NCBI RefSeq assembly: GCF_023336905.1
Contig: NZ_JAMBLS010000026.1
Coordinates: forward strand, 1-48,009
Direction of reading: 5' to 3'
Length of the DNA: 48,009 nt
DNA from: Bacteroides sp. ET71
Lineage (GTDB): Bacteria; Bacteroidota; Bacteroidia; Bacteroidales; Bacteroidaceae
The first letter of the stretch is position 1; every line of letters begins with the position of its first letter. Positions 10,805-29,670 of this stretch are shown piece after piece. The notes under the pieces are model-generated. The model saw only the letters and a program-made list of their open reading frames with translations, was not told the DNA's origin and made no database searches. The translations under genes and the position numbers were made by a program.

Positions 10805-10870
10805 GCTTCTTCCGGACACGGGGCACGCTTCCTCCGGACAAGGGCCGCGCTTCTTCCGGACGTGGGGCAA
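10805..10870. repeat. 22-bp-period hairpin-type repeat array A (3 units)
   Basis: Three tandem units of exactly 22 bp (10805-10826, 10827-10848, 10849-10870) share the core GCTTCTTCCGGACA followed by a G-rich stretch (GGGGCAC or GGGCCGC). A degenerate unit may precede at about 10770-10804. The array lies 46 bp after the stop of the small membrane-protein gene and before the ychF promoter. It is related to arrays at 17784-17871, 22674-22739 and 29588-29669. A period of 22 rules out a coding repeat. Confidence 0.75.
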
Positions 10871-10916
10871 GGGGCTGACGCACGCTCTCCGCAGGTCCGG
10901 TACGGGGCGGTTGTTG

Positions 10917-11186
10917 TCAGGCCGGTGCGGTGGCTGTCACCTTCATGGCGTAGTAGACCACGAAGAAGGCGATGCAGAAGAAAGAGAAGCCGATGCGGAA
11001 GGGCATGCCTTGCGGGGCTTCGGACTTGTGGCGGCGGTAGAAGCGCAGCATCTTCACGGTGAAGTAGAACGAGACCAGGGCGGCCAGCAGGGCTACGTGC
11101 ATCAGCGACGTGTAGCCCAGATAGTGCGAAGCGCCAAGCAGCAGGTAGCACAGCAGATTGAGGTAGGAGGCGATAACGTAGTTCAT
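10917..11186 (-). CDS. Small conserved-type membrane protein, function unknown
   Basis: The frame is open to 11285, but that longer form would run through the terminator at 11264-11298 and past the promoter at 11219-11226, so the start MNYVIASYL at 11186 (89 residues) is preferred. Three hydrophobic segments are visible (LNLLCYLLLGASHYLGY, MHVALLAALVSFYFTV, IGFSFFCIAFFVVYYAMKV), with a basic loop FYRRHKS between the second and third. I do not recognise the family. It has its own promoter and is followed by repeat array A. Confidence 0.7.
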   Translation of the reverse strand: MNYVIASYLNLLCYLLLGASHYLGYTSLMHVALLAALVSFYFTVKMLRFYRRHKSEAPQGMPFRIGFSFFCIAFFVVYYAMKVTATAPA

Positions 11187-11218
11187 CGGGACAAAAAATT
11201 GTTTAGAGTTTGACAGGG

Positions 11219-11226
11219 CAAAAATA
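11219..11226 (-). promoter_or_regulatory. Promoter of the small membrane-protein gene (-7 TATTTTTG)
   Basis: A perfect TAnnTTTG match 33 bp before the ATG at 11186, lying between that gene and the upstream terminator. Confidence 0.55.
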
Positions 11227-11263
11227 CGCTTTTGTCGGGAAAAATCCGCTGTTTCGGAGGCAG

Positions 11264-11298
11264 AAAAAAAGCCGGGATGCATCACGCACCCCGGCTTT
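11264..11298 (-). terminator. Rho-independent terminator of the DUF3836 gene
   Basis: Nine-bp perfect arms AAAGCCGGG (11268-11276) and CCCGGCTTT (11290-11298) are followed on the minus strand by seven T. It is placed 48 bp past the stop of the gene at 11346-11744. Confidence 0.88.
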
Positions 11299-11345
11299 CG
11301 TCTGTTATCAAAAGGGTTTTTGGTTATTGTTAGGAGTATCTTCGC

Positions 11346-11744
11346 TCATTGGGCGGTAGCAGTGCTTTCCATCGTCACCGTCATTTCCGGCACAAGAATG
11401 TATTGTCCCTTGCCTTCGTTCCACTGATAGTAAGTGGTGGTGATGTGGTTGCCTTCGTAGGCATAACGCATGCACATGTCTTTCTGCCATTGGTCGCTCT
11501 GTGCGTCCCATTTCATGGCTTCACTCATAGTCAGGCGGTTCTGTTCGTCATACGTGTAGTTGTACTTCATGTAGTTGGCCAGTCCGCTGCCGTCAGCTTT
11601 GTAGATGGTTTCAGCTACCTTCAGACCGTTTGCTACTTCCGAATTGTAAAACAGGTTTGAATCGTTCTCCGCGGAGAGCGTCACGGTGCTCAACAGAAAC
11701 AGTGCCGATGCACACAAGCTTTTTAGCAGGTTCTTTGCTTTCAT
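11346..11744 (-). CDS. Small secreted protein, DUF3836-like
   Basis: A 132-residue protein with a signal peptide (LLKSLCASALFLLSTVTLSAE). The mature part contains paired motifs of the form YNYTYDEQNRLTMSEAMKWD and MCMRYAYEGNHITTTYYQWN, which resemble the short beta-hairpin repeats of the Bacteroides-restricted DUF3836 family. Such proteins occur in many paralogues and have no known function. The unit is monocistronic: a near-ideal promoter (11808-11815) with TTG 20 bp upstream, and a strong terminator (11264-11298). Family assignment is from memory of the motif style. Confidence 0.7.
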   Translation of the reverse strand: MKAKNLLKSLCASALFLLSTVTLSAENDSNLFYNSEVANGLKVAETIYKADGSGLANYMKYNYTYDEQNRLTMSEAMKWDAQSDQWQKDMCMRYAYEGNHITTTYYQWNEGKGQYILVPEMTVTMESTATAQ

Positions 11745-11807
11745 AGTTGTTGTTGTTTTTAGGCGTTAAACTTTCTTTTTGTCTATCAATCGTTCCAGAT
11801 TGCGCTG

Positions 11808-11815
11808 CAAAAGTA
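11808..11815 (-). promoter_or_regulatory. Promoter of the DUF3836-like gene (-7 TACTTTTG)
   Basis: Perfect TAnnTTTG match with TTG at -33 and a 20-bp spacer. It lies 64 bp before the start codon, giving a leader with several AAC repeats just before the ATG. Confidence 0.7.
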
Positions 11816-11917
11816 CGTCTCTTATTCGGAATAGCCAACTGTTTCTGGTTTAAAATGTGTCAATATGTCAAACAGGGTTGCCGTCCTTTTCCTATCCTTC
11901 TGCCAACTCCAAGGGGC

Positions 11918-11948
11918 AAAAAAATATCCGCCGGGCGTTCCGGCGGAT
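11918..11948 (-). terminator. Rho-independent terminator of polA
   Basis: ATCCGCCGG (11926-11934) and CCGGCGGAT (11940-11948) form a 9-bp stem with a 5-nt loop. On the minus strand it is followed by A then T-rich sequence including seven T. It lies 70 bp after the polA stop. Confidence 0.88.
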
Positions 11949-12017
11949 AAGACGGCGAACAGCTTGCACAGTGTTTGTGCGGCATGCCTTGCTTTCTGAT
12001 TGTAAGTTAAAGTTTGT

Positions 12018-14855
12018 TTAATGGGCTTCCAGCCAGTTCGTCCCCCACCCGAAATCGGCCTTCAGAGGCACCAGCATGGGGTAAGCGTTCTCCATTTCTT
12101 CGATTACGATTTTCTGTACGATGTCCTTTTCCGCCTCCGGAACACTGAAATTCAGTTCGTCGTGCACCTGCAAAATCATCTTCGCTTTCAGATTGTAAGC
12201 TGTGAAGCGTTGGTAGATGCGCGCCATGGCCACCTTGATGATGTCTGCCGCACTGCCCTGTATCGGCGCGTTGATGGCATTGCGTTCTGCATAGCCGCGC
12301 ACGGTGGCGTTTCGTGAGTTGATGTCCGGCAAGTAGCGCTTGCGGTGGAAGATGGTCTCCACATACCCCTGCGCGCGGGCCACCTCGATGCTCCGCTCCA
12401 TGTAAGCCTTCACCTTCGGGTACGTGGCGAAATATCCGTCGATAAGTTCCTTCGCCTCCTGCCTGGAGACGCCCATCCGTTCGGCCAGCCCGAAGGTCGA
12501 TATGCCGTAGATGATGCCGAAGTTGGCCGTTTTCGCCTTGCGGCGCATCTCCGCACTCACTTCGTCTATACTTATTTTATATATCTTGGCTGCCGTGGCC
12601 GCGTGGATGTCGTGCCCGCTGCGGAAGGCCTCTATCATGTTTTCGTCGCCGCTCAAGTGCGCCATGATGCGCAGCTCGATCTGCGAATAGTCCGCCGAGA
12701 AGAAGCGGCAGCCGTCATCCGGCACAAAAGCCTTACGGATTTCCTTCCCGTCGTCGTCGCGCACCGGTATGTTTTGCAGGTTCGGGTTGCTCGAACTGAG
12801 GCGGCCCGTAGCCGTCACCGCTTGGTTGAACGACGTGTGTATGCGCCCCGTCCGCGGGTTGATGAGCAGCGGCAGCGCGTCCACATAAGTGCCCAGCAGT
12901 TTCTTGAGGCCGCGGTGCTCCAGTATTTTCCCGACTACTTCGTGTTTTCCCCGCAGGCTTTCCAGTACCTCTTCCGACGTGACATACTGTCCGGTCTTCG
13001 TTTTCTTGGGTTTCTCGGCTATCTTCAGTTCATCGAACAACACCTCTCCCACCTGTTTGGGCGAAGCAATGTTGAAGTGCCTTCCTCCGGCCATCCGGTA
13101 GATGTCTTGCTCTATTTCGGCCAGACGCGCGGTGAAGTGCCGCGAGGTCTGGCTCAAGGCTTCGGTGTCTATGCGCACCCCGTTGCTTTCGAGGTTTACC
13201 AGCACGGGCACCAGAGGCATCTCTATTTCGTAGAACAGTTTGGTGGCATTGTTCTTCTCCAGTTCCTTTTCTAAGATGTGCTTCAGCTTCAGTGTCACAT
13301 CGGCATCTTCGCAGGCGTAGCGGTAGACGTCGGCGGGCGGCAGGTCGCGCATGGATTTCTGCCCTTTGCCCCGGGCGCCAATCAGTTGGTCGATGTGGAT
13401 GGTCCGGTAGTGCAGGTAGACTTCTGCCAAGTAATCCATGTTGTGCTTCAATTCCGGTTGCAGCACGTAGTGGGCGAGCATTGTGTCGAACAGCGGCCCG
13501 CAGACCCGAACGCCGTAGTTCTGGAGCACCACCATGTCGTACTTGATGTTCTGTCCCACCTTCAGGCACCGGGGATTTTCGTACAGCGGGCGAAGCAAGT
13601 CTACTATTCGTTGTGCTTTCTCCCTCTCGTTCGGAATGGCCACGTACCAGGCGCGGTTTTCGGCATCGCTGAAGCTGGCGCCGACCAGCTCGGCTTCCAT
13701 TGGCTCGGTGCTCGTTGTCTCTGTGTCTATTGCAAGAATTTCGGATGTCAATAACTTTTGAACCAGACGAGCGACATCTTCTTCGGACTCAATGAGTTGG
13801 TATTCCGTAACTATGGATTCTAACGTGTCGAGATTTGGATTTTCCGCGTCGCCTGTCCCGTCGGCCGCTAATTTCGCAAACAAATCGCCTTGCGTGGGGA
13901 CGGGATTTTTGTGTCCTTCGGGGGCTTGGGCAAAAAGCGGGCCGGCGAAGGAGTCTGCCGGGGTGGGGGAGGTTGCGGCGGGTTTGCGCAAGACGCGCTC
14001 GGCCAGCGAGCGGAACTCCAGTTCGTCGAAAATCTTGCGCAGTGCTTCGGCATCCGGTTCTTTGAGCGCCAGCATGTCCATGTCCAGCGCGATGGGGACG
14101 TCGGTCTTGATGGTAGCCAAGAACTTGGAGAACGTTATCTGTTCGCGGTTGCTCTCTACCTTGGTCTTCAAGGCTCCTTTCAGTTCGTCGGTGTGCTCCA
14201 GCAGGTTTTCGATGCTGCCGAACTGGGCAATGAGCTTTTGCGCTGTCTTTTCGCCGACGCCGGGACAGCCCGGGATGTTGTCGGACGCGTCGCCCATCAG
14301 GCCCAGCATGTCAATGACCTGGCGGGTGTCGTCTATGGCAAACTTGGCTTTCACTTCGGGGATGCCCATTTTTTCGAATCCGCCGGTGTGTTTGGGCCGG
14401 TACATGTAGACGCTGCCGCCCACGAGCTGGCCGTAGTCTTTGTCCGGGGTCATCATGTAGGTCGTAATGCCACGGCGTCCGGCTTCGGTGGCCAAGGTGC
14501 CGATGACGTCGTCGGCCTCGAATCCCGGCACCTCCAAGATGGGGATGCGGTAGGCGCGGATGATGTCTTTAATGATGGGCACGGAGAGGCGGATGTCTTC
14601 CGGTGTTTCTTCCCGTTGTGCCTTGTATTGTTCGTAGGCTTCGTGGCGGAAGGTGGGGCCGGCGGGGTCGAAGGCGATGCCGATATGGGTGGGCTTCTCT
14701 TTCTTCAGCACTTCCTCGAGGGTGTTGACAAAGCCCAGGATGGCCGATGTGTTGAAGCCTTTGGAGTTGACGCGCGGGTTCTTGATGAGCGCATAATACG
14801 CACGGTAGATGAGCGCGTAGGCATCCAATAAAAAGAGTTTTTCGGTAGATTCCAT
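12018..14855 (-). CDS. polA: DNA polymerase I
   Basis: 945 residues from MESTEKLFLLDAYALIYRAY at 14855; the frame is open further upstream but the extension is not polymerase-like. The 5'-nuclease domain spans about 1-290 (IGIAFDPAGPTFRHEAY, EADDVIGTLA, GLMGDASDNIPG). The 3'-5' exonuclease is apparently active, since motif I (DTETTS, Asp377) is intact. The polymerase domain has motif A DYSQIELRIMAHLSGDE (Asp722), motif B RRKAKTANFGIIYG and motif C QVHDEL (Asp899). It fills gaps in repair and removes Okazaki primers. Divergently arranged with the prenyl synthase gene; terminator at 11918-11948. Confidence 0.97.
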   Translation of the reverse strand: MESTEKLFLLDAYALIYRAYYALIKNPRVNSKGFNTSAILGFVNTLEEVLKKEKPTHIGIAFDPAGPTFRHEAYEQYKAQREETPEDIRLSVPIIKDIIRAYRIPILEVPGFEADDVIGTLATEAGRRGITTYMMTPDKDYGQLVGGSVYMYRPKHTGGFEKMGIPEVKAKFAIDDTRQVIDMLGLMGDASDNIPGCPGVGEKTAQKLIAQFGSIENLLEHTDELKGALKTKVESNREQITFSKFLATIKTDVPIALDMDMLALKEPDAEALRKIFDELEFRSLAERVLRKPAATSPTPADSFAGPLFAQAPEGHKNPVPTQGDLFAKLAADGTGDAENPNLDTLESIVTEYQLIESEEDVARLVQKLLTSEILAIDTETTSTEPMEAELVGASFSDAENRAWYVAIPNEREKAQRIVDLLRPLYENPRCLKVGQNIKYDMVVLQNYGVRVCGPLFDTMLAHYVLQPELKHNMDYLAEVYLHYRTIHIDQLIGARGKGQKSMRDLPPADVYRYACEDADVTLKLKHILEKELEKNNATKLFYEIEMPLVPVLVNLESNGVRIDTEALSQTSRHFTARLAEIEQDIYRMAGGRHFNIASPKQVGEVLFDELKIAEKPKKTKTGQYVTSEEVLESLRGKHEVVGKILEHRGLKKLLGTYVDALPLLINPRTGRIHTSFNQAVTATGRLSSSNPNLQNIPVRDDDGKEIRKAFVPDDGCRFFSADYSQIELRIMAHLSGDENMIEAFRSGHDIHAATAAKIYKISIDEVSAEMRRKAKTANFGIIYGISTFGLAERMGVSRQEAKELIDGYFATYPKVKAYMERSIEVARAQGYVETIFHRKRYLPDINSRNATVRGYAERNAINAPIQGSAADIIKVAMARIYQRFTAYNLKAKMILQVHDELNFSVPEAEKDIVQKIVIEEMENAYPMLVPLKADFGWGTNWLEAH

Positions 14856-14878
14856 TGTTTTTAGTCTTTTTTTCGTGG

Positions 14879-14926
14879 TAAAAGTACGAAGAAAATACGG
14901 TATTACTTGTTTTATTATTACTTTTG
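14879..14926. promoter_or_regulatory. Divergent promoters polA / polyprenyl synthase
   Basis: On the plus strand TACTTTTG (14919-14926) is a perfect -7 for the prenyl synthase gene starting at 14943. On the minus strand TACTTTTA (14886-14879) is one base off consensus and 24 bp before the polA start. Confidence 0.55.
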
Positions 14927-14942
14927 TGCTCAAATTAATCAT

Positions 14943-15917
14943 ATGAATCGTTCTTCTTTAATAAGTGCGCCTATAAGTAGGGAAATGGAGGAATTTAGGA
15001 AGCTGTTCGGCAGTTCCTTGTCCAGTTCCAACCTTTTGTTACAGGAAGTCATCGAGCACATCCGGCAAAAGAACGGGAAGATGATGCGTCCGATGCTGGT
15101 GTTGCTCGCGGCCAAGCTGCTGGGCGGGGTGCGCCCGGCTACGTTGTATGCGGCCGTCTCGTTGGAACTGTTGCACACGGCCAGCCTGGTGCACGACGAT
15201 GTGGTGGACGACAGTACGGAACGGCGCGGGCAACTGTCTGTGAACGCTTTGTTCAACAATAAGGTGGCTGTTCTGACCGGCGATTTCTTACTGGCTACGT
15301 CGTTAATTCAGGCCAGCCAGACGAAGAACCTGGCTATCATCGACCTTATTTCGGGGCTGGGGCAGGACTTGGCAGACGGCGAGTTGCTGCAACTGTCGAA
15401 CGTCAGCAACCAAAGCTTTTCGGAAGAGGTTTATTTCGATGTCATCCGCAAGAAGACGGCTGCGCTGTTTGCTTCGTGTACGAAGGCCGGAGCGTTGTCG
15501 GTCGGGGCGGATGAGGCCAAGACGGAGGTTTTGCGTCGTTTTGGCGAATACATCGGCCTGTGTTTCCAGGTGAAGGACGATATTTTTGATTATTACGAGA
15601 GCAAGCAGATTGGGAAGCCGACGGGCAACGACATGCTGGAAGGCAAGCTGACGCTGCCGGTGCTGTATGCGCTGAACAGCACGCACGACGAGCGTGCCAC
15701 GCTGCTGGCCCGGCGCGTGAAGGCGGGACAGGCGACGGCGGAGGAGATAGGCGAGCTGATAGCCTTTACCAAGGAGCATGGCGGCATCGAATATGCCTGG
15801 CGGACGATGGACGTTCTCCGCGCGAAGGCGTTGGACTTGCTGGAAGGCGTGCCTGCCGGCGAGGTGAAGGAAGCGCTTACAGCGTACATTGATTACGTGG
15901 TGGAGAGGGATAAATAA
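14943..15917 (+). CDS. Long-chain polyprenyl diphosphate synthase
   Basis: 324 residues from MNRSSLISAPIS; an upstream in-frame ATG (14907) would overlap the promoter. The first aspartate-rich motif is LVHDDVVDD (Asp85, Asp86, Asp89), preceded by GKMMRPMLVLLAAK; the second is VKDDIFDY (Asp212, Asp213, Asp216). These mark a trans-prenyl transferase adding isopentenyl units to make the side chain of menaquinone (IspB/HepT-like). Small residues rather than bulky aromatics before the first motif (ELLHTASL) suggest a long product. A strong terminator follows at 15953-15997. Confidence 0.9.
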   Translation: MNRSSLISAPISREMEEFRKLFGSSLSSSNLLLQEVIEHIRQKNGKMMRPMLVLLAAKLLGGVRPATLYAAVSLELLHTASLVHDDVVDDSTERRGQLSVNALFNNKVAVLTGDFLLATSLIQASQTKNLAIIDLISGLGQDLADGELLQLSNVSNQSFSEEVYFDVIRKKTAALFASCTKAGALSVGADEAKTEVLRRFGEYIGLCFQVKDDIFDYYESKQIGKPTGNDMLEGKLTLPVLYALNSTHDERATLLARRVKAGQATAEEIGELIAFTKEHGGIEYAWRTMDVLRAKALDLLEGVPAGEVKEALTAYIDYVVERDK

Positions 15918-15952
15918 TTGCCACGGAAGGCTGTTCTTTTCTTATATATGAT

Positions 15953-15997
15953 ATACCCGGTAGCGGTCGTGATGGACGGTTACCGGGTATTTTTTTG
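15953..15997 (+). terminator. Rho-independent terminator of the prenyl synthase gene
   Basis: ATACCCGGTA (15953-15962) pairs with TACCGGGTAT (15981-15990), followed by a run of T on the plus strand. It sits between two convergent genes. Confidence 0.88.
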
Positions 15998-16010
15998 TCG
16001 GCCGTAGGGC

Positions 16011-16913
16011 TTAGAACCACTTCGTCTCTTGGCCCAGGATGTCGCTGAGCAGAAGGTTGGCCAGGCGGCTGGTGCCGAGGCGGAAGTAGAAGTTGTTCAG
16101 CCATTCTTCGCCCAAGACTTCGCGGACGATGGTGTAGTAGGTGAGGGCGTCGGCCACCGTGTTCAGTCCGCCGGCGGGCTTGAAGCCTACGCGCCGGCCT
16201 GTCTGCTCGTAGTATTCCTTGATGGCGTGGCACATGACGTAGGCGGCTTCGGGCGTGGCGGCGGGCTGCTGCTTGCCGGTGCTGGTCTTGATGAAGTCGG
16301 CGCCGGCATACATGGCCAGGATGGAGGCTTTCTTGATATTGGCGGCGGTGCGCAGGGCGCCCGTTTCGAGGATGACTTTCAGGCGGTGTGTCTTGCATGC
16401 GTCTTTGATTTCCTCGATTTCGTCGCACATGGCTTCGTAGTCTCCGGCGAGGAACTTGCCTACCGAGATAACGATGTCAATCTCCGTAGCTCCCTCGCTA
16501 AGCGCCATGGCTGTTTCGGCAATCTTTACTTCCGTAAAGGTCTGCGAGGAGGGGAATCCGCCGGCCACGCAGGCTATCTGTACGTCTTCGACTTCGAGCG
16601 TGTCCCGCACGATTTCGGCGAAGTTGGGGTAGACACAGATGGCGGCCACGTTCTTCAGCTCGGGGTGTTCCTCGTCCAAGCGGTTGACGTTTTGCGTGAA
16701 GCGCATGACGCTTTCGTCGTTGTCTTCGCAACGCAGTGTGGTGAGGTCGATGCAGTTGAAGAGGAAGCGTTTCACTTCCGGCGTGTCGTAGCGGTCTCTG
16801 TTCTTCTCGATGATTTCCGCTGTCCGGGCGGCCACTTCGGCGTCGTCCAGCAGGATGTCGTACCGGCTGAGGGCGTCGTCGTACTTGCTTTGGGTGGGTT
16901 CATTCTTTTCCAT
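16011..16913 (-). CDS. deoC: Deoxyribose-phosphate aldolase
   Basis: A 300-residue class I aldolase that splits 2-deoxyribose-5-phosphate into glyceraldehyde-3-phosphate and acetaldehyde. The Schiff-base lysine is Lys209 in DFIKTSTGK, and the second active-site lysine is in RVGFKPAGGL; EIDIVISVGKFLAGDY carries the conserved aspartate region. It is longer than the roughly 220-250-residue short forms because of an extra N-terminal helix region, as in Bacteroidetes and enterobacterial types. Its start overlaps the mazG-type stop by 14 bp, so the deoC-mazG-dtd group is coupled around nucleotide and tRNA clean-up. Confidence 0.94.
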   Translation of the reverse strand: MEKNEPTQSKYDDALSRYDILLDDAEVAARTAEIIEKNRDRYDTPEVKRFLFNCIDLTTLRCEDNDESVMRFTQNVNRLDEEHPELKNVAAICVYPNFAEIVRDTLEVEDVQIACVAGGFPSSQTFTEVKIAETAMALSEGATEIDIVISVGKFLAGDYEAMCDEIEEIKDACKTHRLKVILETGALRTAANIKKASILAMYAGADFIKTSTGKQQPAATPEAAYVMCHAIKEYYEQTGRRVGFKPAGGLNTVADALTYYTIVREVLGEEWLNNFYFRLGTSRLANLLLSDILGQETKWF

Positions 16914-17241
16914 CTTGTTCTCTTAGTTTGGGGTTATTCAGGTGCCGGGTTCGGTCCCGGTTGGTTTTCTTTTCGAGGGTGCGGGCGAAGGCTTCGGTCA
17001 GGTCTGTGCCTGTCTGGTTGGCCAGGCAGATGAGCACCCAGAGCACGTCGGCCAGTTCTTCGCTGAGGTTGTCTTTCTCGCCTGGTTTGAAGGATTGGTC
17101 GCCGTAGCGCCGGGCGACGACGCGGGCCAGTTCTCCCACTTCTTCGGTCAGCACGGCCAGGTTGGTCAGTTCGCTGAAGTAGCGCACGCCGTAGGTGCGT
17201 ATCCAGTCGTCTACTTGTTTTTGGGCTTCTTCCAGTGTCAT
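16900..17241 (-). CDS. MazG-type nucleotide pyrophosphohydrolase
   Basis: 113 residues from MTLEEAQKQVDDW. The metal-binding pattern EExxE followed by ExxD is seen as LTEEVGELARVVARR and LSEELADVLWVLICLANQTG, the MazG catalytic helices. Such small single-domain members hydrolyse nucleoside triphosphates to monophosphates as house-cleaning enzymes. The start codon shares one base with the dtd stop (TAATG) and the end overlaps deoC by 14 bp, so translation of the three genes is coupled. The exact substrate cannot be read from sequence. Confidence 0.88.
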   Translation of the reverse strand: MTLEEAQKQVDDWIRTYGVRYFSELTNLAVLTEEVGELARVVARRYGDQSFKPGEKDNLSEELADVLWVLICLANQTGTDLTEAFARTLEKKTNRDRTRHLNNPKLREQDGKE

Positions 17242-17693
17242 TACTCTTTGTTTTTCGTGTCCATGCAGATGGTGACGGGGCCGTCGTTCAGCAGGGTGAC
17301 TTTCATGTCTGCTCCGAACTGTCCGGTGGCGACGGGCTTGCCCAGGGCGTCTGACAGCGAGCGGCAGAACTGCTCGTACAGCGGGATGGCCGTTTCGGGG
17401 CGGGCGGCGCGTATGTACGACGGGCGGTTGCCTTTCTTGGTCGAGGCGTGCAGGGTGAATTGGCTGACGACGAGGATGTCGCCTCCGCTCTCCAGGATGG
17501 AGCGGTTCATGACTCCCTGCTCGTCGTCGAAGATGCGCAGGTTGGTTATCTTGCGGCACAGCCAGTCGATGTCTTCCTGCCCGTCGGCCTCTTCGATGCC
17601 TACCAGTATGAGCATCCCGGGGCCGATGGCCGACTTTTCCCGTCCGTCGATGACGACGGAGGCGTGGGCGGTGCGTTGTATCACTACTCTCAT
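17241..17693 (-). CDS. dtd: D-aminoacyl-tRNA deacylase
   Basis: 150 residues from MRVVIQRTAHASVVIDG at 17693. The cross-subunit Gly-cisPro motif region is visible as ATGQFGADMKVTLLNDGPVT, and the catalytic-site strand as LVVSQFTLHASTKKGNRPSY. The homodimer removes D-amino acids, and glycine mischarged on tRNA-Ala, from tRNA. The frame stays open upstream to about 17849 through the repeat array, but the initial residues of the family match this start and a promoter lies at 17727-17734. First gene of the dtd-mazG-deoC unit. Confidence 0.96.
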   Translation of the reverse strand: MRVVIQRTAHASVVIDGREKSAIGPGMLILVGIEEADGQEDIDWLCRKITNLRIFDDEQGVMNRSILESGGDILVVSQFTLHASTKKGNRPSYIRAARPETAIPLYEQFCRSLSDALGKPVATGQFGADMKVTLLNDGPVTICMDTKNKE

Positions 17694-17726
17694 GTTTCTG
17701 TTCTTCTTGGGTCTGTTTTCTATGTG

Positions 17727-17734
17727 CAAAGATA
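17727..17734 (-). promoter_or_regulatory. Promoter of the dtd-mazG-deoC unit (-7 TATCTTTG)
   Basis: A perfect TAnnTTTG match 34 bp before the dtd ATG, between the gene and repeat array B. No clear -33 was seen. Confidence 0.6.
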
Positions 17735-17783
17735 CGAATCTTTTTCGTTGTTTCCGCTTTTTGCGGGCGTCGGGTGGGGTTTT

Positions 17784-17871
17784 CTTCGGCGTCCGCAGCG
17801 GGAGCGGCTCTTGTCCGCAACGGGCACGCTTCTTGTCCGCAGGAAGCACGGCTGTTGTGCGTAAGAGACAA
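17784..17871. repeat. 22-bp-period hairpin-type repeat array B (4 units)
   Basis: Four consecutive 22-bp units (17784-17805, 17806-17827, 17828-17849, 17850-17871), the first and last degenerate. The shared core is CTTGTCCGCA followed by CGGGCAC or GGAAGCAC. Unit 3 folds as an 8-bp stem, GCTTCTTG with CAGGAAGC, around a TCCG loop. The array starts 15 bp after the uvrC stop and ends before the dtd promoter. Same family as arrays A, C and D. Confidence 0.75.
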
Positions 17872-17886
17872 GTACCTGGCAGACTG

Positions 17887-19737: not shown

Positions 19738-19775
19738 AGCAAGCGGCAAGTTAAGAGTATATAGGCTTATGATGA

Positions 19776-19805
19776 GAACGGATTGCCTCTTGGGGCAATC
19801 CGTTC
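19776..19805. terminator. 12-bp perfect hairpin between apt and uvrC
   Basis: GAACGGATTGCC (19776-19787) and GGCAATCCGTTC (19794-19805) with a 6-nt loop. No T-run follows on the minus strand. It may be an attenuator or RNA-stability stem within an apt-uvrC transcript rather than a full terminator. Confidence 0.5.
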
Positions 19806-19833
19806 CTCCTTTCTCGTAAGTGGTGCTCCTTTC

Positions 19834-20358: not shown

Positions 20359-20391
20359 AATCAAATGCTTTATGAGGTTTATTCAATCTTT

Positions 20392-20407
20392 TGTTTCACG
20401 TGGAACT
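20392..20407. other. parS-like centromere site
   Basis: TGTTTCACGTGGAACT matches the widely conserved parS consensus TGTTYCACGTGRAACA at 15 of 16 positions. It lies in the 55-bp gap between mnmG (gidA) and apt. In many bacteria ParB binds such sites near gidA and the origin. No parAB genes are in the window, and binding here is inference. Confidence 0.55.
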
Positions 20408-20413
20408 GCTTCC

Positions 20414-22288
<1,875 letters not shown>

Positions 22289-22319
22289 GCTGTTTCTAAA
22301 TCTTTTTAGGTATCCGATG

Positions 22320-22327
22320 CAAAGGTA
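22320..22327 (-). promoter_or_regulatory. mnmG promoter (-7 TACCTTTG)
   Basis: Perfect TAnnTTTG match 32 bp before the mnmG start, with a TTG 22 bp further upstream. Confidence 0.6.
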
Positions 22328-22673
22328 CTAAAAGTTGGGGAATATCCGGCAAGGGTGTGGCTTTGTCGCGTTTTCCTGCCTGTATTTGTGTACGAGGGGA
22401 CGGCTGGGCGGAAAAATCGCAGCCAAAAGGCGTTTGGGAAAAGCAAAAAGTAAGCGGAGTGGGGGAATGGTGGCTTGTTTTGTTGATTTTTGTAGCGGAT
22501 TGCTTTTCGTTTGATGCGTTCGTGAATTGAAAAGGAACTTTTTGCTTCCAATTTGTCGACACGGTTTGACGCGCGGATACGGAGCAGACAGCTTGCGGCC
22601 TCCGGTTGCGCGCGTATCTTTCTATAAAGACAGGCACCGTGCGGTCGTTTTCTTTGGGGGTCGGTCCGTGTTT

Positions 22674-22739
22674 CCTTCTTGTCCGGAAGAACGGTGGCTT
22701 TTGTTCGGAAGAGCCGCGCTTCTTGTTCGGAAGAGCCAC
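22674..22739. repeat. 22-bp-period hairpin-type repeat array C (3 units)
   Basis: Three 22-bp units (22674-22695, 22696-22717, 22718-22739) carry the core TTGTTCGGAAGAGCC or TTGTCCGGAAGAACG; a degenerate fourth unit begins at 22740. Unit 2 pairs GGCTTTT with AAGAGCC around GTTCGG. The array lies in the 638-bp gap between divergent mnmG and the GH2 gene. The rest of that gap (22328-22673 and 22762-22890) shows no gene, RNA or other repeat that I can support. Confidence 0.75.
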
Positions 22740-22890
22740 GGCTCTTGGCGGGGGTGTCTGCGAGGCGAGGGAAGTGCTTGTCCGGGTTTTGTGCGTTGTC
22801 CGGGTGGCTCATTGGTAAAATCAGATAGTTTTTGCACAATTTCTTGCATTAATTGGCCGAATAGTGCTAACTTCTGAAAGAAAAAAGGCT

Positions 22891-22898
22891 TATCTTTG
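22891..22898 (+). promoter_or_regulatory. Promoter of the GH2 cassette (-7 TATCTTTG)
   Basis: Perfect TAnnTTTG match 28 bp before the GH2 start codon. No convincing -33 TTTG at the usual spacing, which may indicate activator dependence. Confidence 0.6.
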
Positions 22899-22926
22899 TT
22901 TGCGAACACAAAAAACATAAAAACGC

Positions 22927-24753
22927 ATGAAACGAATTGTTGCTTTTTCTCTGTTGCTTGCCTTGTTTGCAGGCAACGCTTCTGCCCAATGGTCTCCGGC
23001 GGGCGATCGTATTAAAACGAAGTGGGCTGAAGAACTGAATCCCGCTCAAGTGTTACCCGAGTATCCCCGTCCTCAGATGGAGCGTCCGGACTGGAAGAAC
23101 CTGAACGGACTGTGGCAGTATGCCGTCATTCCGAAAGATGCCGCGCTGCCCGACAGCTTCGAGGGCGAAATCCTCGTACCCTTTGCCATCGAGTCTTCGT
23201 TGTCCGGCGTGTGCCGCAGGCTGGGCGAAAATTCGGAGCTGGTCTACCAACGCACCTTCAGCGTGCCTGCCGACTGGCGCGGCCGCAATGTCCTGCTGCA
23301 CTTCGGGGCTGTTGACTGGCGTGCCGACGTGTGGGTCAACGGGGTGAAGGTGGGTCGCCACGAAGGCGGTTTCGCACCCTTCTCGTTCGACATCACGGCG
23401 GCCCTCTTGCCCAAAGGAAACGATAACACGCTGACCGTGCGCGTGTGGGACCCCACCGACCGTGGCCCGCAACCCCGAGGCAAGCAGGTGAACGAACCCA
23501 GCGGCATCTGGTACACCCCCGTCAGCGGCATCTGGCAGACCGTGTGGCTGGAGCCCGTGGCCGAACAACACATCGGCAACCTGCGCATCACGCCCGACAT
23601 CGACCGCCGCACGCTCAGCATCGAGGCCGACACCCGGGGATGCACCTCGGGCACCCTGCTCGAAGTCGAAGTGTATGACGGACAGTCGCTCGTGGCCGCT
23701 GGAAAGAGCATCAACGCGCAGCCTGTGGAAATCCGTATGCCCGAAGACATGAAGCTCTGGAGCCCCGAAAGCCCCTTCCTCTACGACCTGAAAGTGCGCC
23801 TGACGGAAGGACGCAAGACCCTGGACGAAGTGGACAGCTACGCCGCCATGCGCAAGTTCTCCACCCTGCGCGATAAAGACGGAATCGTCCGCCTCGCCCT
23901 CAACAACCGCCCCATCTTCCAGTACGGCCCCTTGGACCAAGGCTGGTGGCCCGACGGACTCTACACGGCTCCGACCGACGAGGCTTTGCGCTACGACGTG
24001 GAAATGACCAAGAAACTGGGCTTCAACATGATAAGAAAACACATCAAGGTAGAGCCCGCCCGCTGGTACACACACTGCGACCAGCTCGGCATCATCGTCT
24101 GGCAAGACATGCCCAGCGGCGACCGCAATCCCGAATGGCAATCGCGCCAGTACTTCAACGGCACAGAGTTGAAGCGCTCGCCCGAGTCCGAAGCCTACTA
24201 CCGCAAAGAGTGGAAAGAAATCATCGACGCCTGCTACTCCTATCCCTGCATCGGCGTCTGGATTCCTTTCAACGAAGCCTGGGGACAGTTCAAGACACCC
24301 GAAATCGCCGAGTGGACGAAGCAATACGACCCCACGCGACTGGTGAACCCCGCCAGCGGAGGAAACCACTATCCGTGCGGAGACATACTCGACTTGCATA
24401 ACTATCCGCAGCCCGACCTCTACCTGTACGACGCACAGCGCGCCACGGTGTTGGGAGAGTTCGGCGGCATCGGACTGGTGCTGAAAGAGCACGTGTGGGA
24501 ACCCGACCGCAACTGGGGCTATGTGCAATTCAGCAGTCCGAAGGAGGTTACCGACGAGTACGTCAAATACGCTGACAAACTCTACAACCTCGTGAAGCGC
24601 GGATTCTCCGCCGGCGTCTATACTCAGACCACCGACGTCGAAGTAGAGGTCAACGGCTTCATGACCTACGACCGCAAAGTCGTGAAGGTGGACGTCGACC
24701 GCGTGCGCGAAGCCAATCTCCGCCTCATCCATTCGTTGGACGAACAAAAATAA
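22927..24753 (+). CDS. GH2 family exported glycoside hydrolase
   Basis: A 608-residue protein with a signal peptide (IVAFSLLLALFAGNASA). The order is jelly-roll sugar-binding domain (about 45-215, with VDWRADVWVNGVKVGRHEGG), an immunoglobulin-like domain (about 215-320) and a TIM barrel. The acid/base is Glu450 in IPFNEAWGQ and the nucleophile Glu511 in TVLGEFGGIG, as expected for family 2. It lacks the extra C-terminal domains of LacZ. Beta-galactosidase or related beta-glycosidase activity is likely; the exact sugar cannot be told. First gene of a four-gene plus-strand cassette with GH43, a six-hairpin protein and aldose 1-epimerase, starting 12 bp before the GH43 gene. Confidence 0.88.
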   Translation: MKRIVAFSLLLALFAGNASAQWSPAGDRIKTKWAEELNPAQVLPEYPRPQMERPDWKNLNGLWQYAVIPKDAALPDSFEGEILVPFAIESSLSGVCRRLGENSELVYQRTFSVPADWRGRNVLLHFGAVDWRADVWVNGVKVGRHEGGFAPFSFDITAALLPKGNDNTLTVRVWDPTDRGPQPRGKQVNEPSGIWYTPVSGIWQTVWLEPVAEQHIGNLRITPDIDRRTLSIEADTRGCTSGTLLEVEVYDGQSLVAAGKSINAQPVEIRMPEDMKLWSPESPFLYDLKVRLTEGRKTLDEVDSYAAMRKFSTLRDKDGIVRLALNNRPIFQYGPLDQGWWPDGLYTAPTDEALRYDVEMTKKLGFNMIRKHIKVEPARWYTHCDQLGIIVWQDMPSGDRNPEWQSRQYFNGTELKRSPESEAYYRKEWKEIIDACYSYPCIGVWIPFNEAWGQFKTPEIAEWTKQYDPTRLVNPASGGNHYPCGDILDLHNYPQPDLYLYDAQRATVLGEFGGIGLVLKEHVWEPDRNWGYVQFSSPKEVTDEYVKYADKLYNLVKRGFSAGVYTQTTDVEVEVNGFMTYDRKVVKVDVDRVREANLRLIHSLDEQK

Positions 24754-24765
24754 CCGGGCCGCGGA

Positions 24766-25803
24766 ATGAAACAAGCACTCGCACTGTGCGGCACCCTTCT
24801 CCTGCTGGCAGGACATCCGGCTGTTTACGGCCAGGACTCCGGCCGGCAGGAGATTCCGTATGCCGACCCCACCATCGTCCTGGTGGGCGACACCTATTAC
24901 CTGACAGGCACCTCCTCGCAGACACCTGCCGGCTTCACCGTGTTGCTTTCGGACGAATTGGAAGGACCCTGGCGAACAGGAACCACGGACGACACCCGCT
25001 TCCTCCTGACCCAAGGCACCTCCTACGGCACAGCCGGATTCTGGGCGCCCCAATGGATACAGTTGGATAACAATGTCTGGGGCCTGGCCTACACTGCCAA
25101 CGAACAGACCGCGCTAGCCTGGAGCGACCGTGTGACAGGGCCTTTTCGGCAAGACACGCTGCGCCCCATCGACGCTTCGGCGAAGAACATCGACCCTTTC
25201 CTCTTCCGTGACGACGACGGGAAATGCTACCTCTACCACGTCCGCTTCGACCACGGCAATTACATCTGGGTGGCCGAGTTCGACTTGCAGCAAGGCACCA
25301 TCCGCCCCGAGACTCTGCGCCGCTGTCTGGACAACACCGAGCCTTGGGAGAACACCCCGTCCTATCCCTCCGTACCCATCATGGAAGGGCCGACTGTCGT
25401 CAAGCTCGACGGCGTGTACTACCTGTTCTTCTCAGCCAACCATTTCATGAACGTCGACTATGCCGTAGGCTATGCCACTTCGTCCTCGCCACTCGGCCCG
25501 TGGGTCAAACACGCGGAAAATCCCATCATTAGCCGCCGCATCGTGGGCGAGAACGGCAGCGGTCACGGAGACATCTTCCGCGGCAAAGACGAACGGCTCT
25601 ACTACGTCTACCACGTCCATGCCTCCGACCGCGAAGTCTCCCCGCGCCGCACACGCATCGTCCCCCTGCATCTGGCGAAGCGGGCAGATGGCCTTTACGA
25701 CATCTCGGTGAAGCCCGACGCAGTCATCATTCCCCGCCGGATTCTCGGGACAGCCGGCTCCAACGCAGAAACGATAAAACTATCACGTAATATAAATAAG
25801 TAA
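24766..25803 (+). CDS. GH43 family exported glycosidase
   Basis: A 345-residue protein with a signal peptide (LALCGTLLLLAGHPAVYGQ). The five-bladed propeller catalytic trio is visible: general base Asp34 in YADPTI, pKa modulator Asp143 in KNIDPFLF, and general acid Glu207 in IMEGPTVVKLDGVYYLFFS. Family members are mostly alpha-L-arabinofuranosidases, beta-xylosidases or exo-beta-1,3-galactanases. Next to a GH2 enzyme and GalM, an arabinogalactan-type or arabinose-decorated substrate is plausible, but this is inference. The short gap after GH2 (12 bp) and 28 bp to the next gene indicate one operon. Confidence 0.88.
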   Translation: MKQALALCGTLLLLAGHPAVYGQDSGRQEIPYADPTIVLVGDTYYLTGTSSQTPAGFTVLLSDELEGPWRTGTTDDTRFLLTQGTSYGTAGFWAPQWIQLDNNVWGLAYTANEQTALAWSDRVTGPFRQDTLRPIDASAKNIDPFLFRDDDGKCYLYHVRFDHGNYIWVAEFDLQQGTIRPETLRRCLDNTEPWENTPSYPSVPIMEGPTVVKLDGVYYLFFSANHFMNVDYAVGYATSSSPLGPWVKHAENPIISRRIVGENGSGHGDIFRGKDERLYYVYHVHASDREVSPRRTRIVPLHLAKRADGLYDISVKPDAVIIPRRILGTAGSNAETIKLSRNINK

Positions 25804-25831
25804 AAACAGTATTCATTCATTTGTTACCATT

Positions 25832-27868
25832 ATGAAGTTGAAAAAGCTATTAGTAGCCCTCTTGTTGCCTTTGGCCGGAGTAACCGGAGCCGGAGCAATG
25901 AACGCCGCTGCCGGAGACGCATCGGCAACCATCAGTCTGAAAACGCCGGGCAACCCGGCTCAGGAATATCCTCTGACGTTCCGCGAACTGCGGCCCGGAC
26001 TTTATGCCGGCACCTCGTCGGCCGATGTACCTCTGTTGGTCAGCCGCCAAATAGAAAACATGGACGGCCGTCAGCGCATTACGCTCACTCTTACCGCACA
26101 ACAAGACCTCTATTTTAACTACGGAGAGGAACTGAAGACGGGGTACAGGCACGACGATTGCCAGTTCTACATGCCCGGCTTCTGGTATCGCCGCAATCTT
26201 CGTTCGCCTAAAGAGGCACCGTCGTTCCACACGTCAGACAGTTGGCTGGTGCGCGACGACCGTCTGAGCACTCCGCTGACAGCCGCTTTCGACGAGAAAA
26301 ACGGCCGCTCTGTGTCAGTCATCCATATCAGCGACTTTGCTACCGATGCCTTGACCACGCACGAAGAAGGCGAAGTGATTCTTTCCGGCGAGACTTCCGT
26401 CGGTTATACAGGCTTCCTGAACAAAGGCGGCGAGACGGTGCTGGCCTACGGCTTCCCCTACCGTGAGGAACCGCGCACGTACATCCGCAAGTGCACCCTG
26501 GCCCCGGCCGTCAAGGCATTCCAGTACTTGCCGAAGGGCGAAAGCGTGGTGCTTACTTGGGAGATTAGCGAACGCCAGGTCGCAGACTTCTCGGAGTGCG
26601 TACAGCGCACGTGGGAGTATTGCTACGACACGAACCGCCCGCAACCCGTACAGACGTCCTATACGCCCGACTATATGAAGGAGGTGCTGAGCAATTATTT
26701 TCTCAACGCTTACGTGCCCGGCAAGCTGTGCTTCTACTCCAGCCCTGAGATGGTAGTGGCCACTTGTGCTAGCATTGACCAGGCCGAAGTAGGCTTCGTA
26801 GGCCGCACGCTGCTCAATGCCTTTAACGCACTGGAATATGGCGAAGGGAAAGGCAACAACCCGGAGATGGTAAAGCAGGCGCAAAGCATCTTTGACAGCT
26901 ACCTGGCCAACGGATTGTCCGAAGCAGGCTTCTTCCACGAAGTGGCGCGTCCTGAACGGGGTTGGGTCGACCCAGTCCATAGCATCCGCCGGCAATCGGA
27001 GGGTGTGTATGCCGTGCTCTACTACCTGAACTACGAGAAGAGCCAAGGCCGCAAACATCCGGAATGGGAGCAAAAGGTACGCAATATGCTGGACAAGTTC
27101 CTGCAAATCCAGAACGAAGACGGCAGCTTCCCCCGCAAGTTCCGCGACGATTTCTCGCTGGTTGATGCCAGCGGTGGAAGTACGCCGTCGGCCACTCTGC
27201 CGTTGGTGATGGGCTACAAATATTTCAAGGACAAACGCTACCTCGAGTCGGCCCGCCGCACGGTGGACTACTTGGAGCGTGAGATTATTTCGAAGGCCGA
27301 TTACTTCTCCTCAACGCTGGACGCCAACTGCGAGGACAAGGAGGCTTCGCTTTATGCCGCTACGGCCATCTATTACCTGGCGCTGGTGTCTGGTGACAAG
27401 GAGAAAGAGCGCTACGTCGCTTTGGCCAAGAAGGCCGCTTACTTTGCGCTGTCGTGGTATTATACCTGGGACGTTCCCTTTGCCCAAGGGCAGATGTTGG
27501 GCGACCTTGGCCTGAAGACGCGCGGCTGGGGCAACGTGTCGGTGGAGAACAACCACATTGACGTGTTCATCTTCGACTTTGCCGACGTGCTGCACTGGCT
27601 GGCCCGCGAGTGTGGCGAGAAGCGTTTCTCTGACTTTGCCGAGGTCATCTCCACTTCCATGCGCCAGTTGCTGCCGCGCGAAGGCTACCTGTGCGGCATG
27701 GGCAAGGTAGGCTATTATCCCGAAGTGGTGCAGCACACGCACTGGGACTATGGCCGCAACGGCAAGGGATACTATAACGTCATTTTTGCTCCGGGCTGGA
27801 CGGTGGCTTCGTTGTGGGAGCTGTTCTCGCCGGGGCGTGCCGAACAATTCCTGCAAGGGAAGAAATAA
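25832..27868 (+). CDS. Exported six-hairpin glycosidase-like protein
   Basis: 678 residues with a signal peptide (LLVALLLPLAGVTGAGA). About residues 30-280 are beta-rich; from about 290 onward the sequence is helical with repeated hairpins (YALYYLNYEKSQGRKHPEW-like, LPLVMGYKYFKDKRYLESA, SLYAATAIYYLALVSG, GWGNVSVENNHIDVFIFDFA), which looks like an (alpha/alpha)6 toroid. Acidic candidates include ENNHIDVF and DANCEDKEAS. I do not recognise a CAZy family with confidence. Its place between a GH43 enzyme and an aldose epimerase makes a glycan-cleaving role likely. Confidence 0.65.
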   Translation: MKLKKLLVALLLPLAGVTGAGAMNAAAGDASATISLKTPGNPAQEYPLTFRELRPGLYAGTSSADVPLLVSRQIENMDGRQRITLTLTAQQDLYFNYGEELKTGYRHDDCQFYMPGFWYRRNLRSPKEAPSFHTSDSWLVRDDRLSTPLTAAFDEKNGRSVSVIHISDFATDALTTHEEGEVILSGETSVGYTGFLNKGGETVLAYGFPYREEPRTYIRKCTLAPAVKAFQYLPKGESVVLTWEISERQVADFSECVQRTWEYCYDTNRPQPVQTSYTPDYMKEVLSNYFLNAYVPGKLCFYSSPEMVVATCASIDQAEVGFVGRTLLNAFNALEYGEGKGNNPEMVKQAQSIFDSYLANGLSEAGFFHEVARPERGWVDPVHSIRRQSEGVYAVLYYLNYEKSQGRKHPEWEQKVRNMLDKFLQIQNEDGSFPRKFRDDFSLVDASGGSTPSATLPLVMGYKYFKDKRYLESARRTVDYLEREIISKADYFSSTLDANCEDKEASLYAATAIYYLALVSGDKEKERYVALAKKAAYFALSWYYTWDVPFAQGQMLGDLGLKTRGWGNVSVENNHIDVFIFDFADVLHWLARECGEKRFSDFAEVISTSMRQLLPREGYLCGMGKVGYYPEVVQHTHWDYGRNGKGYYNVIFAPGWTVASLWELFSPGRAEQFLQGKK

Positions 27869-27907
27869 GATTTTCCGTATATGTTTAATCTAATAATGTA
27901 ATCCGAA

Positions 27908-29047
27908 ATGAAAAAGATTTTGAAACTCTCTGTGGCCGCCTTGCTTCTGACGCTGGCGGCTTGTGGCGGGAAGCAGCAGGAAGTGAAGACTGCCTCCGGC
28001 CTGAACCCTGCCGATTTCCAGACGGAAGTAGACGGCAAGCAAACGGCGCTCTACACGCTGACCAATGCCAACGGCATGGAAGTGTGCATCACCAACTTCG
28101 GCGGACGCATCGTCTCCGTCATGGTGCCCGACCGCGACGGCGTCATGCGCGATGTGGTGCTGGGCTTCGACTCCATCGCCGACTATGTGAAGTATCCCTC
28201 GGACTTCGGTGCAACCATCGGACGCTATGCCAACCGCATAGGCCAGGGCAAATTCTCGTTGGACGGCGTGGACTACCAACTGCCCACGAACAACTACGGG
28301 CATTGCCTGCACGGCGGTCCGAAGGGTTTCCAGTACCGTGTATTCGATGCTGTGCAGCCCGACCAGCACACGCTGAAGCTGAGCTATCTGTCGAAAGACG
28401 GTGAAGAAGGATTCCCCGGAAACCTGAATTGCACGGTAACCTTTACGCTGACGGACGACAACGCCATCGACATCCAATATGGCGCCGAGACCGACAAGCC
28501 GACCATCGTCAACCTGACGAACCACTCGTACTTCAACCTCGACGGAGACCCCTCGCGCGATAACTCCGAGTACCTGCTGATGGTGGATGCCGACAACTAT
28601 ACACCCGTAGACAGCACGTTCATGACCACCGGCGAGATTGTGACCGTCGAAGGCACGCCGATGGACTTCCGCCAACCGACAGCCGTGGGCGCCCGCATTG
28701 ACGACGACTTCCAGCAACTGAAGAACGGCCTGGGCTACGACCACAACTGGGTGCTCAACACCAAGGGTGACGACTCGCGTGCCTGCGCCACGCTCGTTTC
28801 GCCCAAGACGGGCATCAAGCTCGAAGTCTTCACCAACGAACCGGGCATCCAGGTGTATGCCGGAAACTTCCTGGACGGCACGCTGCGCGGCAAGAAGGGC
28901 ATCACCTACGGACGCCGTGCCTCCGTCTGCCTGGAGACACAGAAGTATCCCGATACGCCCAACAAGCCCGAATGGCCCACGGCAGTGCTCCGTCCGGGTG
29001 AGAAATACGACAGCCATTGCATCTTCCGCTTCTCGGTAGAGAAATAA
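27908..29047 (+). CDS. galM: Aldose 1-epimerase, lipoprotein form
   Basis: 379 residues with lipobox LTLAAC, so this is an exported, lipid-anchored mutarotase rather than a cytosolic one. Family motifs are TIGRYANRI, the first catalytic-site histidine in HCLHGGPKGF, the catalytic histidine in NLTNHSYFNL, GYDHNWVL, and the glutamate in CLETQKYPDTPN. It interconverts alpha and beta anomers of galactose or similar sugars, speeding use of the product released by the upstream GH2/GH43 enzymes. Last gene of the cassette, closed by a terminator at 29073-29120. Confidence 0.92.
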   Translation: MKKILKLSVAALLLTLAACGGKQQEVKTASGLNPADFQTEVDGKQTALYTLTNANGMEVCITNFGGRIVSVMVPDRDGVMRDVVLGFDSIADYVKYPSDFGATIGRYANRIGQGKFSLDGVDYQLPTNNYGHCLHGGPKGFQYRVFDAVQPDQHTLKLSYLSKDGEEGFPGNLNCTVTFTLTDDNAIDIQYGAETDKPTIVNLTNHSYFNLDGDPSRDNSEYLLMVDADNYTPVDSTFMTTGEIVTVEGTPMDFRQPTAVGARIDDDFQQLKNGLGYDHNWVLNTKGDDSRACATLVSPKTGIKLEVFTNEPGIQVYAGNFLDGTLRGKKGITYGRRASVCLETQKYPDTPNKPEWPTAVLRPGEKYDSHCIFRFSVEK

Positions 29048-29072
29048 CGGACGAGGCCAGGCAAGCCTTCTG

Positions 29073-29120
29073 AGGGGCAGCCCTCCGGACGCGGTTCCGG
29101 GCGGCTGCCCCTTATTTTTC
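29073..29120 (+). terminator. Rho-independent terminator of the GH2-GH43-galM cassette
   Basis: AGGGGCAGCC (29073-29082) and GGCTGCCCCT (29103-29112) form a 10-bp stem, followed by TATTTTTC on the plus strand. The 3' side overlaps the stop codon of convergent ybeY. Confidence 0.8.
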
Positions 29121-29531
29121 GGGGCGCATTGCCAGGGCGCGGTCTTCCGCCGCCTCCATGACCTCGCGCTCGCCCGGTCCCTTGTCATTGATGCCGCACA
29201 AGTGCAGCACGCCGTGGATGATGACACGGTGCAGCTCTGTGTCATACGCCGTGCCGAACTGCTCGGCGTTGCTGCGCACCGTATCCAGGCTGATGAACAA
29301 GTCGCCGCTCAGGCGGTTGCCCTCGCAATAGTCGAAGGTGATGATGTCCGTGTAATAATCGTGCTGAAGATACTGCCGGTTCACCTCCAGGATTTTCTCG
29401 TCCGAGCAGAAGATGTAGGCAATCTCGCCCACGCGTTTGCCGTAAGTGGCCGCCACGGCCTTAATCCATTCCGTTGTCTCTCGTTTCCTGATGTCGGGCA
29501 TGTCCACGCCCTCTGTCTGGTAAGTAATCAT
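29112..29531 (-). CDS. ybeY: rRNA maturation endoribonuclease YbeY
   Basis: 139 residues. The zinc-site segment is HGVLHLCGIND (His106, His110), but the third histidine of the usual HGxLHLxGYDH pattern is absent: NDKGPGE follows instead of a DH pair. My recollection is that Bacteroidetes YbeY often has DK here, so the protein is probably functional with a changed ligand. Other family parts are present (ADKxLEVNRQYLQHDYYTDIITFDY-like, GDLFISLDTV). It processes rRNA ends and helps ribosome quality control. Upstream is repeat array D rather than a clear consensus promoter. Confidence 0.9.
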   Translation of the reverse strand: MITYQTEGVDMPDIRKRETTEWIKAVAATYGKRVGEIAYIFCSDEKILEVNRQYLQHDYYTDIITFDYCEGNRLSGDLFISLDTVRSNAEQFGTAYDTELHRVIIHGVLHLCGINDKGPGEREVMEAAEDRALAMRPEK

Positions 29532-29587
29532 ACTATGCTTATTTTCAATGTGTTAACTGTAAACAAATCCATCCCTTGCCGCCCGTT

Positions 29588-29669
29588 TGCCTCTTGCGGA
29601 CAAGAAGCATGTCCCGTGTCCGACGGAAGCACCCGCTTCCGGACGAAGCAAGCCCCCTGTTCGGAGCAG
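29588..29669. repeat. 22-bp-period hairpin-type repeat array D (4 units)
   Basis: Two 22-bp units (29588-29609, 29610-29631) and two shortened 19-bp units (29632-29650, 29651-29669). Written on the minus strand, unit 1 is a near-perfect hairpin: stem TGCTTCTTG, loop TCCG, stem CAAGAGGCA. The array begins one base after the stop codon of the SpmAB-like gene and precedes ybeY. It is in the opposite orientation to arrays A-C. The remaining 29532-29587 holds only leader sequence. Confidence 0.75.
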
Positions 29670-29670
29670 C

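Follow-up and report, generated by a model that had tools for sequence, protein, structure and literature searches.

Intergenic arrays of dyad-symmetric 22-bp units in Bacteroides sp. ET71 and the occurrence of their architecture in the family Bacteroidaceae

The window analysed here is the whole 48,009-nucleotide stretch of contig NZ_JAMBLS010000026.1 (C26) of Bacteroides sp. ET71, whose genome (G000; assembly GCF_023336905.1, 3.63 Mb in 189 contigs) is referred to below as the source genome. Four short arrays with a period of 22 bp, A to D, had been reported in it by an earlier note made from the letters alone. All four are present in the sequence and by a unit profile, and A to C are also detected by Tandem Repeats Finder (TRF). 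The genes beside them are ychF, polA, uvrC, mnmG, a GH2 glycosidase gene and ybeY; dtd, which follows uvrC, was assigned via synteny with an annotated B. finegoldii record and a start motif. Array A (10803-10868, minus strand) consists of three units, at 10803, 10825 and 10847, with dyads 22 bp apart, and is flanked by ychF (9559-10662) and a hypothetical gene starting at 10917. Array B (17784-17871, plus strand) occupies the uvrC-dtd gap with units at 17806, 17828 and 17850 and a decayed unit at 17784. Array C (22674-22761, plus strand) is found in the divergent gap between mnmG and the GH2 glycosidase gene and has units at 22674, 22696 and 22718 and a decayed unit at 22740. Array D (29587-29673) lies between ybeY and the gene at 29671-30906, whose stop it follows directly. 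Its units at 29587 (minus), 29611, 29630 and 29652 (all plus) have dyad spacings of 22, 19 and 22; the 19-bp units formerly described in it correspond to one dyad spacing of 19, and the array is in fact of mixed orientation, its first unit being inverted.

TRF assigns period 22 to 10805-10869 (A), 17791-17842 and 17805-17858 (B) and 22677-22747 (C), D being below its threshold. In a scan of the window over lags 15-40, segments with 30/44 matches or more appeared only at lag 22 (three) and at lags 21, 23, 28 and 33 (one each). Forty first-order random versions of the window gave no segments at lags 21-23.

The unit obtained from an iterated profile, GCTTCTTGTCCGGAAGAAGCAC, has symmetric arms (GCTTCTT and AAGAAGC) on either side of an asymmetric core, GTCCGG; a two-base linker completes it. 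Units adjoin directly. CRISPR loci are likewise regular, partly palindromic repeat arrays, but the Bacteroides arrays have no spacers and are built of 22-bp units, in agreement with the earlier judgement that they are not CRISPR. In the clusters of the source genome, the dyads of neighbouring units are exactly 22 bp apart in 63 of 68 cases, the others being 19, 34, 44, 44 and 45. Inverted neighbours have start distances of 20 (plus then minus, n=3) or 24 (minus then plus, n=6), both of which amount to 22 between dyads, and both orientations are present in 11 of the 35 source arrays. In G184, a genome of another genus, the 22-bp spacing was observed for 52/60 same-strand and 19/20 opposite-strand neighbours. 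The register tracks the symmetry axis, not the strand. A profile trained on G188, a further genome, collapsed onto alternating half-units on opposite strands, and the strand balance and dyad counts of that genome were not used.

There are 14 copies of the exact core CTTCTTGTCCGSA in the source genome versus one of the reversed control. Eight of these loci were fetched: six carry further units in intergenic sequence, and two (L005 and L006) are embedded in long frames (554 and 396 amino acids) and have no neighbouring units. Among 59 other genomes of the genus the exact core is near background, except in G034 (4 occurrences) and G046 (8); the latter is, judged by contig coordinates, the same genome as G255, that of the sister species. 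The 22-position sequence model R1, for which 150 first-look candidates were scored per genome, so that counts may be low, matched 170 times in the source genome and 157 times in the sister, 0-13 times in 20 relatives and 1-16 times in nine others, the maximum of 16 belonging to G256, the genome of locus L010. The genome scan proposed in the earlier note thus places the motif far above background. A sample of 438 kb (20 stretches and the window, 12% of the source genome) yielded 219 profile hits, grouped in 151 clusters. Of these, 35 have at least two units (103 units) and were counted as arrays, and the 116 singletons were not; shuffled sequence gave 73 raw hits against 227. If this density holds, the source genome would contain about 290 arrays. 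Two of the 35 are inside predicted genes, probably by chance. Units are more alike within arrays (similarity 0.668, 108 pairs) than between them (0.612, 5145 pairs), so that the resemblance claimed earlier stands to a modest degree, the evidence of homogenisation being weak.

The arrays keep their places relative to the sister species, compared at 94.0% identity over 196 kb of blocks. For 20 of the 35 source arrays both flanks were in the fetched sister sequence, and the array was present in 19 of them, the single exception being a chance cluster inside a gene. In the reverse comparison, 47 sister arrays included 21 with both flanks, and the array was present in 21/21. No empty sites were found against the sister. 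Orthologues of arrays A, B, C and D are all present at the uvrC-centred locus L009 of the sister species, the last with the identical 19 spacing. The alignment of 20 orthologous arrays, the chance cluster among them, gave substitution counts of 0/57 at C11, 0/56 at G12 and 1/57 at G8, and the most-changed unit positions were 15 (15/56), 13 (14/56) and 2 (13/56). Taken together, core positions 8, 11 and 12, which were named after the counts were seen, changed in 1/170 cases versus 143/1066 elsewhere (Fisher p=3.6e-9). Since the source units were chosen by score, a second test allowed for ascertainment by taking half the flank rate as the reference for the core (P ~0.001). Gain or loss of whole units was found in two of the 20 aligned arrays, as a clean 22-bp difference (L162:15821) and as a unit difference in a poor alignment (L176:16857), which bears out the local expansion suggested earlier.

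The architecture was followed in 80 uvrC-centred loci kept out of 420 relatives (1.61 Mb without N), the nearest of which by UvrC is Candidatus Bacteroides merdipullorum (L009, 97%). At 31/44 identities or more, lag 22 accounts for 69 segments in these loci, lag 23 for 17 and lag 21 for 8, and the remaining 23 lags between 15 and 40 average 0.91 and never exceed 3; a segment at lag 21-23 is present in 51/80 loci. Loci with arrays include those of the cultured commensals B. xylanisolvens XB1A (L052) and B. faecis (L057). The lag peak is 22 in the source stretches, the sister, G034, G184 and G181, and G188 has 11 segments at lag 21 and none at lags 22 and 23. A per-genome ruler for the period, suggested by G188, was rejected: unrelated families of one genome share the period in 265/530 pairs (0.50), versus 0.54 of 16,179 between-genome pairs (this test alone left out 8 of the 196 arrays, in which periods below 15 dominate). 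In other genera of the family, 6 of 20 genomes (19 genera, up to 20 kb each) contain lag 21-23 segments, and when a further 80 kb was scanned for each of five segment-free genomes, three showed a single lag-22 segment and two showed none. Single-genome absences are weak because 20 kb is a small sample. Such segments were absent from 366 kb sampled from 19 genomes, which represent 18 further families of the order, and from 100 kb of E. coli K-12. Long near-perfect arrays of at least ten units of 22 or 23 bp (L180:8147-8416, L181:5118-5346, L054:2285-2571) are apparently recent local expansions.

When genes are called with homology support, 67 of 72 lag-22 segments fall between them, and two of the other five are the window arrays B and C under over-extended frames; the earlier view of the arrays as intergenic and not coding is sound. 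A codon model places 8/83 arrays of five genomes inside predicted genes. Crude masking of open reading frames had wrongly marked 31/72 arrays as coding, since GC-rich DNA contains long frames, and was replaced by these two procedures. The uvrC-dtd gap was measurable in 65/81 loci and holds an array in 14 of 37 gaps of at least 120 bp (13 of period 22, one of 23) and in 0/28 shorter gaps.

The sequence of the units, here called the word, is largely specific to the genome. Among 196 arrays from 62 genomes or loci, with alike pairs defined as those above the 99% null level, words are alike in 35.5% of 997 within-genome pairs and in 2.2% of 17,417 between-genome pairs. The source and its sister are alike in 21% of 696 pairs; within G184 all pairs are alike (16 arrays) and within G188 87% (11 arrays). 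The GCTTCTTGTCCGGAAGAAGCAC word is common to the source and this one sister species, and elsewhere in the family the 22-bp architecture is built from other words. In the uvrC-dtd gap the words differ by eye, except in three related species (L031-L033). In L010 (UvrC 90%), 22-bp arrays are present at sites A and B, that of A at the equivalent place, and use a different word; sites C and D have no array. Other families coexist in the source genome, such as AGTGTC...GACACT and 23-bp words. Palindromy is significant (p<=0.05) in 53/110 arrays, of which 38 beat all 60 column permutations. The earlier note had missed the dyad symmetry, the two orientations at constant dyad spacing, the word common to the sister and the family-wide architecture. 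Two further arrangements were observed. In L166:15491-17259 (contig C3 of the source genome), several blocks of 22-bp period (GTTACCC..CTGTCAT) recur every ~170-176 bases. In L194:16172-16384, the word switches midway from ATACTTAGG..CCTAAGTAT to GTTTG..CAAAC in a single 22-bp register, two families thus sharing one array.

Outside the GCTTCTTGTCCGGAAGAAGCAC family, the window has a minor-family palindromic array of period 23 at 38630-38697 (AAGGGTATCTGATACCCTT; TRF period 23 at 38631-38683; lag 23 best with 35 matches versus 21 for the next), and a similar 23-bp word recurs in the source genome at L178 9933-10016. It lies in the fimbrial region. The statement that the arrays never occur there is consequently true of the GCTTCTTGTCCGGAAGAAGCAC family and false of the architecture, which is not restricted to the housekeeping block. 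Two elements spotted by eye on the minus strand, TAACTTTG (10708-10715, between array A and ychF) and TATCTTTG (17727-17734, between array B and dtd), resemble the consensus of the Bacteroides -7 promoter element. No Rfam match at gathering thresholds was obtained within the window, and a tRNA search gave none. Between two fimbrial-region genes, 44926-45326 contains heptamer repeats (TCTTCAT/ATTCTTC) and a 166-bp tandem duplication (2.2 copies, 93% matches). At 37117-37180, two copies of TACCTGCTCCC are followed ~30 bases on by two of the complementary AGGTAGGGAGC, forming an inverted pair of 11-bp direct repeats. One PLSDB 'plasmid' of Bacteroides finegoldii (L241, NZ_OY725942.1) carries mnmG, uvrC, dtd and polA in chromosomal order and is probably a mislabelled chromosome piece.

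The arrays may act as platforms on which a protein, probably a dimer whose specificity changes fast, binds operator-like sites spaced by two helical turns. We infer both this factor and its role, and for that reason the reading is held at about even confidence. Each unit would serve as a near-palindromic site with a constrained asymmetric core, and consecutive dyads, 22 bp apart (21-23 in other families), are separated by two turns of the helix, so that neighbouring sites face the same side of the DNA. The putative protein, accepting either orientation of the core, would bind adjacent units side by side. Arrays would gain and lose whole units locally, selection keeping the core and the register. 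A shift in specificity, or takeover by another factor with its own word, would change the word throughout the genome, and species would therefore come to carry words of their own. Nucleoid organisation or the separation of transcription units can be guessed as roles.

Several points weigh against this reading. The protein factor stands as an inference, an asymmetric core is unusual for a homodimer, and the joint change of hundreds of sites under strong selection is hard to picture. Whole arrays diverge at the flank rate (11.7% vs 10.8%), and gaps of 1-2 bp occur in three aligned arrays (L162:10938, L169:2745, L176:2972). Palindromy is not significant in 57/110 arrays. Several genomes hold more than one word: alike pairs make up 22% in the source (29 arrays), 18% in the sister (24) and 20% in G181 (10), and there are none in L048 (3), the within-genome share being variable because several word families coexist. 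Unit pairs matching at 18/22 or more between loci number 227 versus ~130 under independent columns, and some common descent or copying between loci therefore likely remains. A weak strand bias was found in G184 (33 vs 18 units, p=0.049).

This last bias would suit elements acting in RNA, that is, tandem hairpins working as terminators or 3' stabilisers, as would the ability of the units to form 7-bp stems and the position of 15/21 arrays in same-direction gaps of the source genome, which start no more than 60 bp after the upstream stop. Stem covariation, however, was negative in three tests (0/10 pairs in 138 units; z=1.6 within arrays; 51/500 shuffles for 28 units), and RNA hairpins were set aside on this ground. 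The strands are also balanced in the same-direction gaps of the source genome (31 units on the gene strand, 28 on the other). Arrays occupy 13/52 divergent gaps of at least 200 bp in five genomes, along with 35/122 tandem and 10/24 convergent ones. Terminator-like sites are not enriched at arrays (18 vs 23.0 in shuffles), and the absence of Rfam matches in the window points the same way. An RNA-level function is thus improbable. Neutral minisatellites, produced by replication slippage and then decaying, would account for the whole-unit differences in two of 20 orthologous arrays, for the long regular arrays in G034 and L054 and for divergence at the flank rate. They would leave unexplained the recurrence of one word in 35 arrays within 438 kb, the preference for a period of 22 when other lags are almost empty, a dyad spacing kept through inversion and a constrained core; this explanation is already disfavoured and improbable.

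A more serious competitor, though still an unlikely one, is a largely selfish family of intergenic palindromes that a transposase, or an enzyme copying in a comparable way, has spread, new families replacing old and the period being the length of the copied unit. Repetitive extragenic palindromic (REP) sequences, bacterial interspersed mosaic elements (BIMEs) and REPINs are described in PMC3733652 as multicopy, mostly intergenic palindromic units of 20-40 bp, tagged with GTAG and CGTC, sometimes clustered and with a family composition that varies from species to species. The Bacteroides units are similarly short, multicopy, mostly intergenic and, in the significant share of arrays, palindromic; there would be hundreds of arrays per genome by extrapolation, in several families with largely genome-specific words, and the excess of similar units between loci also fits copying. 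They differ in the exact head-to-tail register of 21-23 bp, kept through inversion. Among 103 source units GTAG occurs in 2, CTAC in 2, CGTC in 8 and GACG in 19, none being part of the consensus, so the tags are not systematic. The source genome has no match to the Y1 transposase of the IS200 or RAYT type (PF01797), which is matched in 5/14 control genomes, and mobilisation by it was rejected, other mobilising enzymes not having been searched for. Further, there are no near-identical arrays between loci (the closest 44-mer matches at 38/44) and no empty sites relative to the sister. A viral source was sought with the exact dimer pattern, which had no matches in viral_contigs, a narrow test. 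Platforms for an array-binding protein fit better than any of these three explanations: the site is dyad-symmetric with a held core, recurs every two turns whichever way it points, keeps its intergenic positions, and has a word that many arrays of a genome share and that is replaced between species.

Among known systems, the iterons of plasmid origins are direct repeats of ~18-22 bp to which a protein binds and which follow one another at about two helical turns, a spacing shared by the Bacteroides arrays. The latter differ in occupying, by extrapolation, hundreds of chromosomal places; the neighbours of the window arrays, for which alone gene functions were assigned, are housekeeping genes (ychF, uvrC/dtd, mnmG, ybeY) with no rep gene among them. 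Cooperative operators of the lambda OR type are likewise dyad-symmetric sites about two turns apart. The constrained core and phased dyads expected of operator arrays were both found here, and a protein would presumably bind them; the Bacteroides arrays differ from OR in being genome-wide and not at one promoter, in the replacement of the word between species and in having a factor that is so far putative. No description of such arrays was found in an open library of papers, which mostly excludes subscription papers, and the earlier statement that no named family matches agrees with this. FopS of Bacteroides, described in PMC11697453 as 14 transcribed multicopy small RNA genes, is also partly intergenic and belongs to the Bacteroidaceae. 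It was rejected as the identity of the arrays, the words 'tandem', 'repeats' and 'repetitive' being absent from the main text of that paper.

More tentatively, the arrays could constitute a chromosomal recognition system of the whole family, with up to hundreds of two-turn-phased arrays per genome, a conserved architecture and a word replaced between species, as in a rapidly co-evolving pair of site and factor for chromosome organisation or the separation of transcription units. Its evolutionary behaviour would be comparable to that of PRDM9 sites or centromere repeats. Bacteroides are dominant gut commensals. Should the arrays be protein platforms, they would indicate an abundant, as yet undescribed DNA-binding system, and cultured strains would allow the study of how close species replace a recognition word across the genome. 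Regarded simply as repeats, the arrays still form a class of interspersed elements in this bacterial family that keeps a fixed two-turn register and for which no mobilising enzyme was found, PF01797 being the only one searched for, and arrays differing by whole units could act as strain markers.

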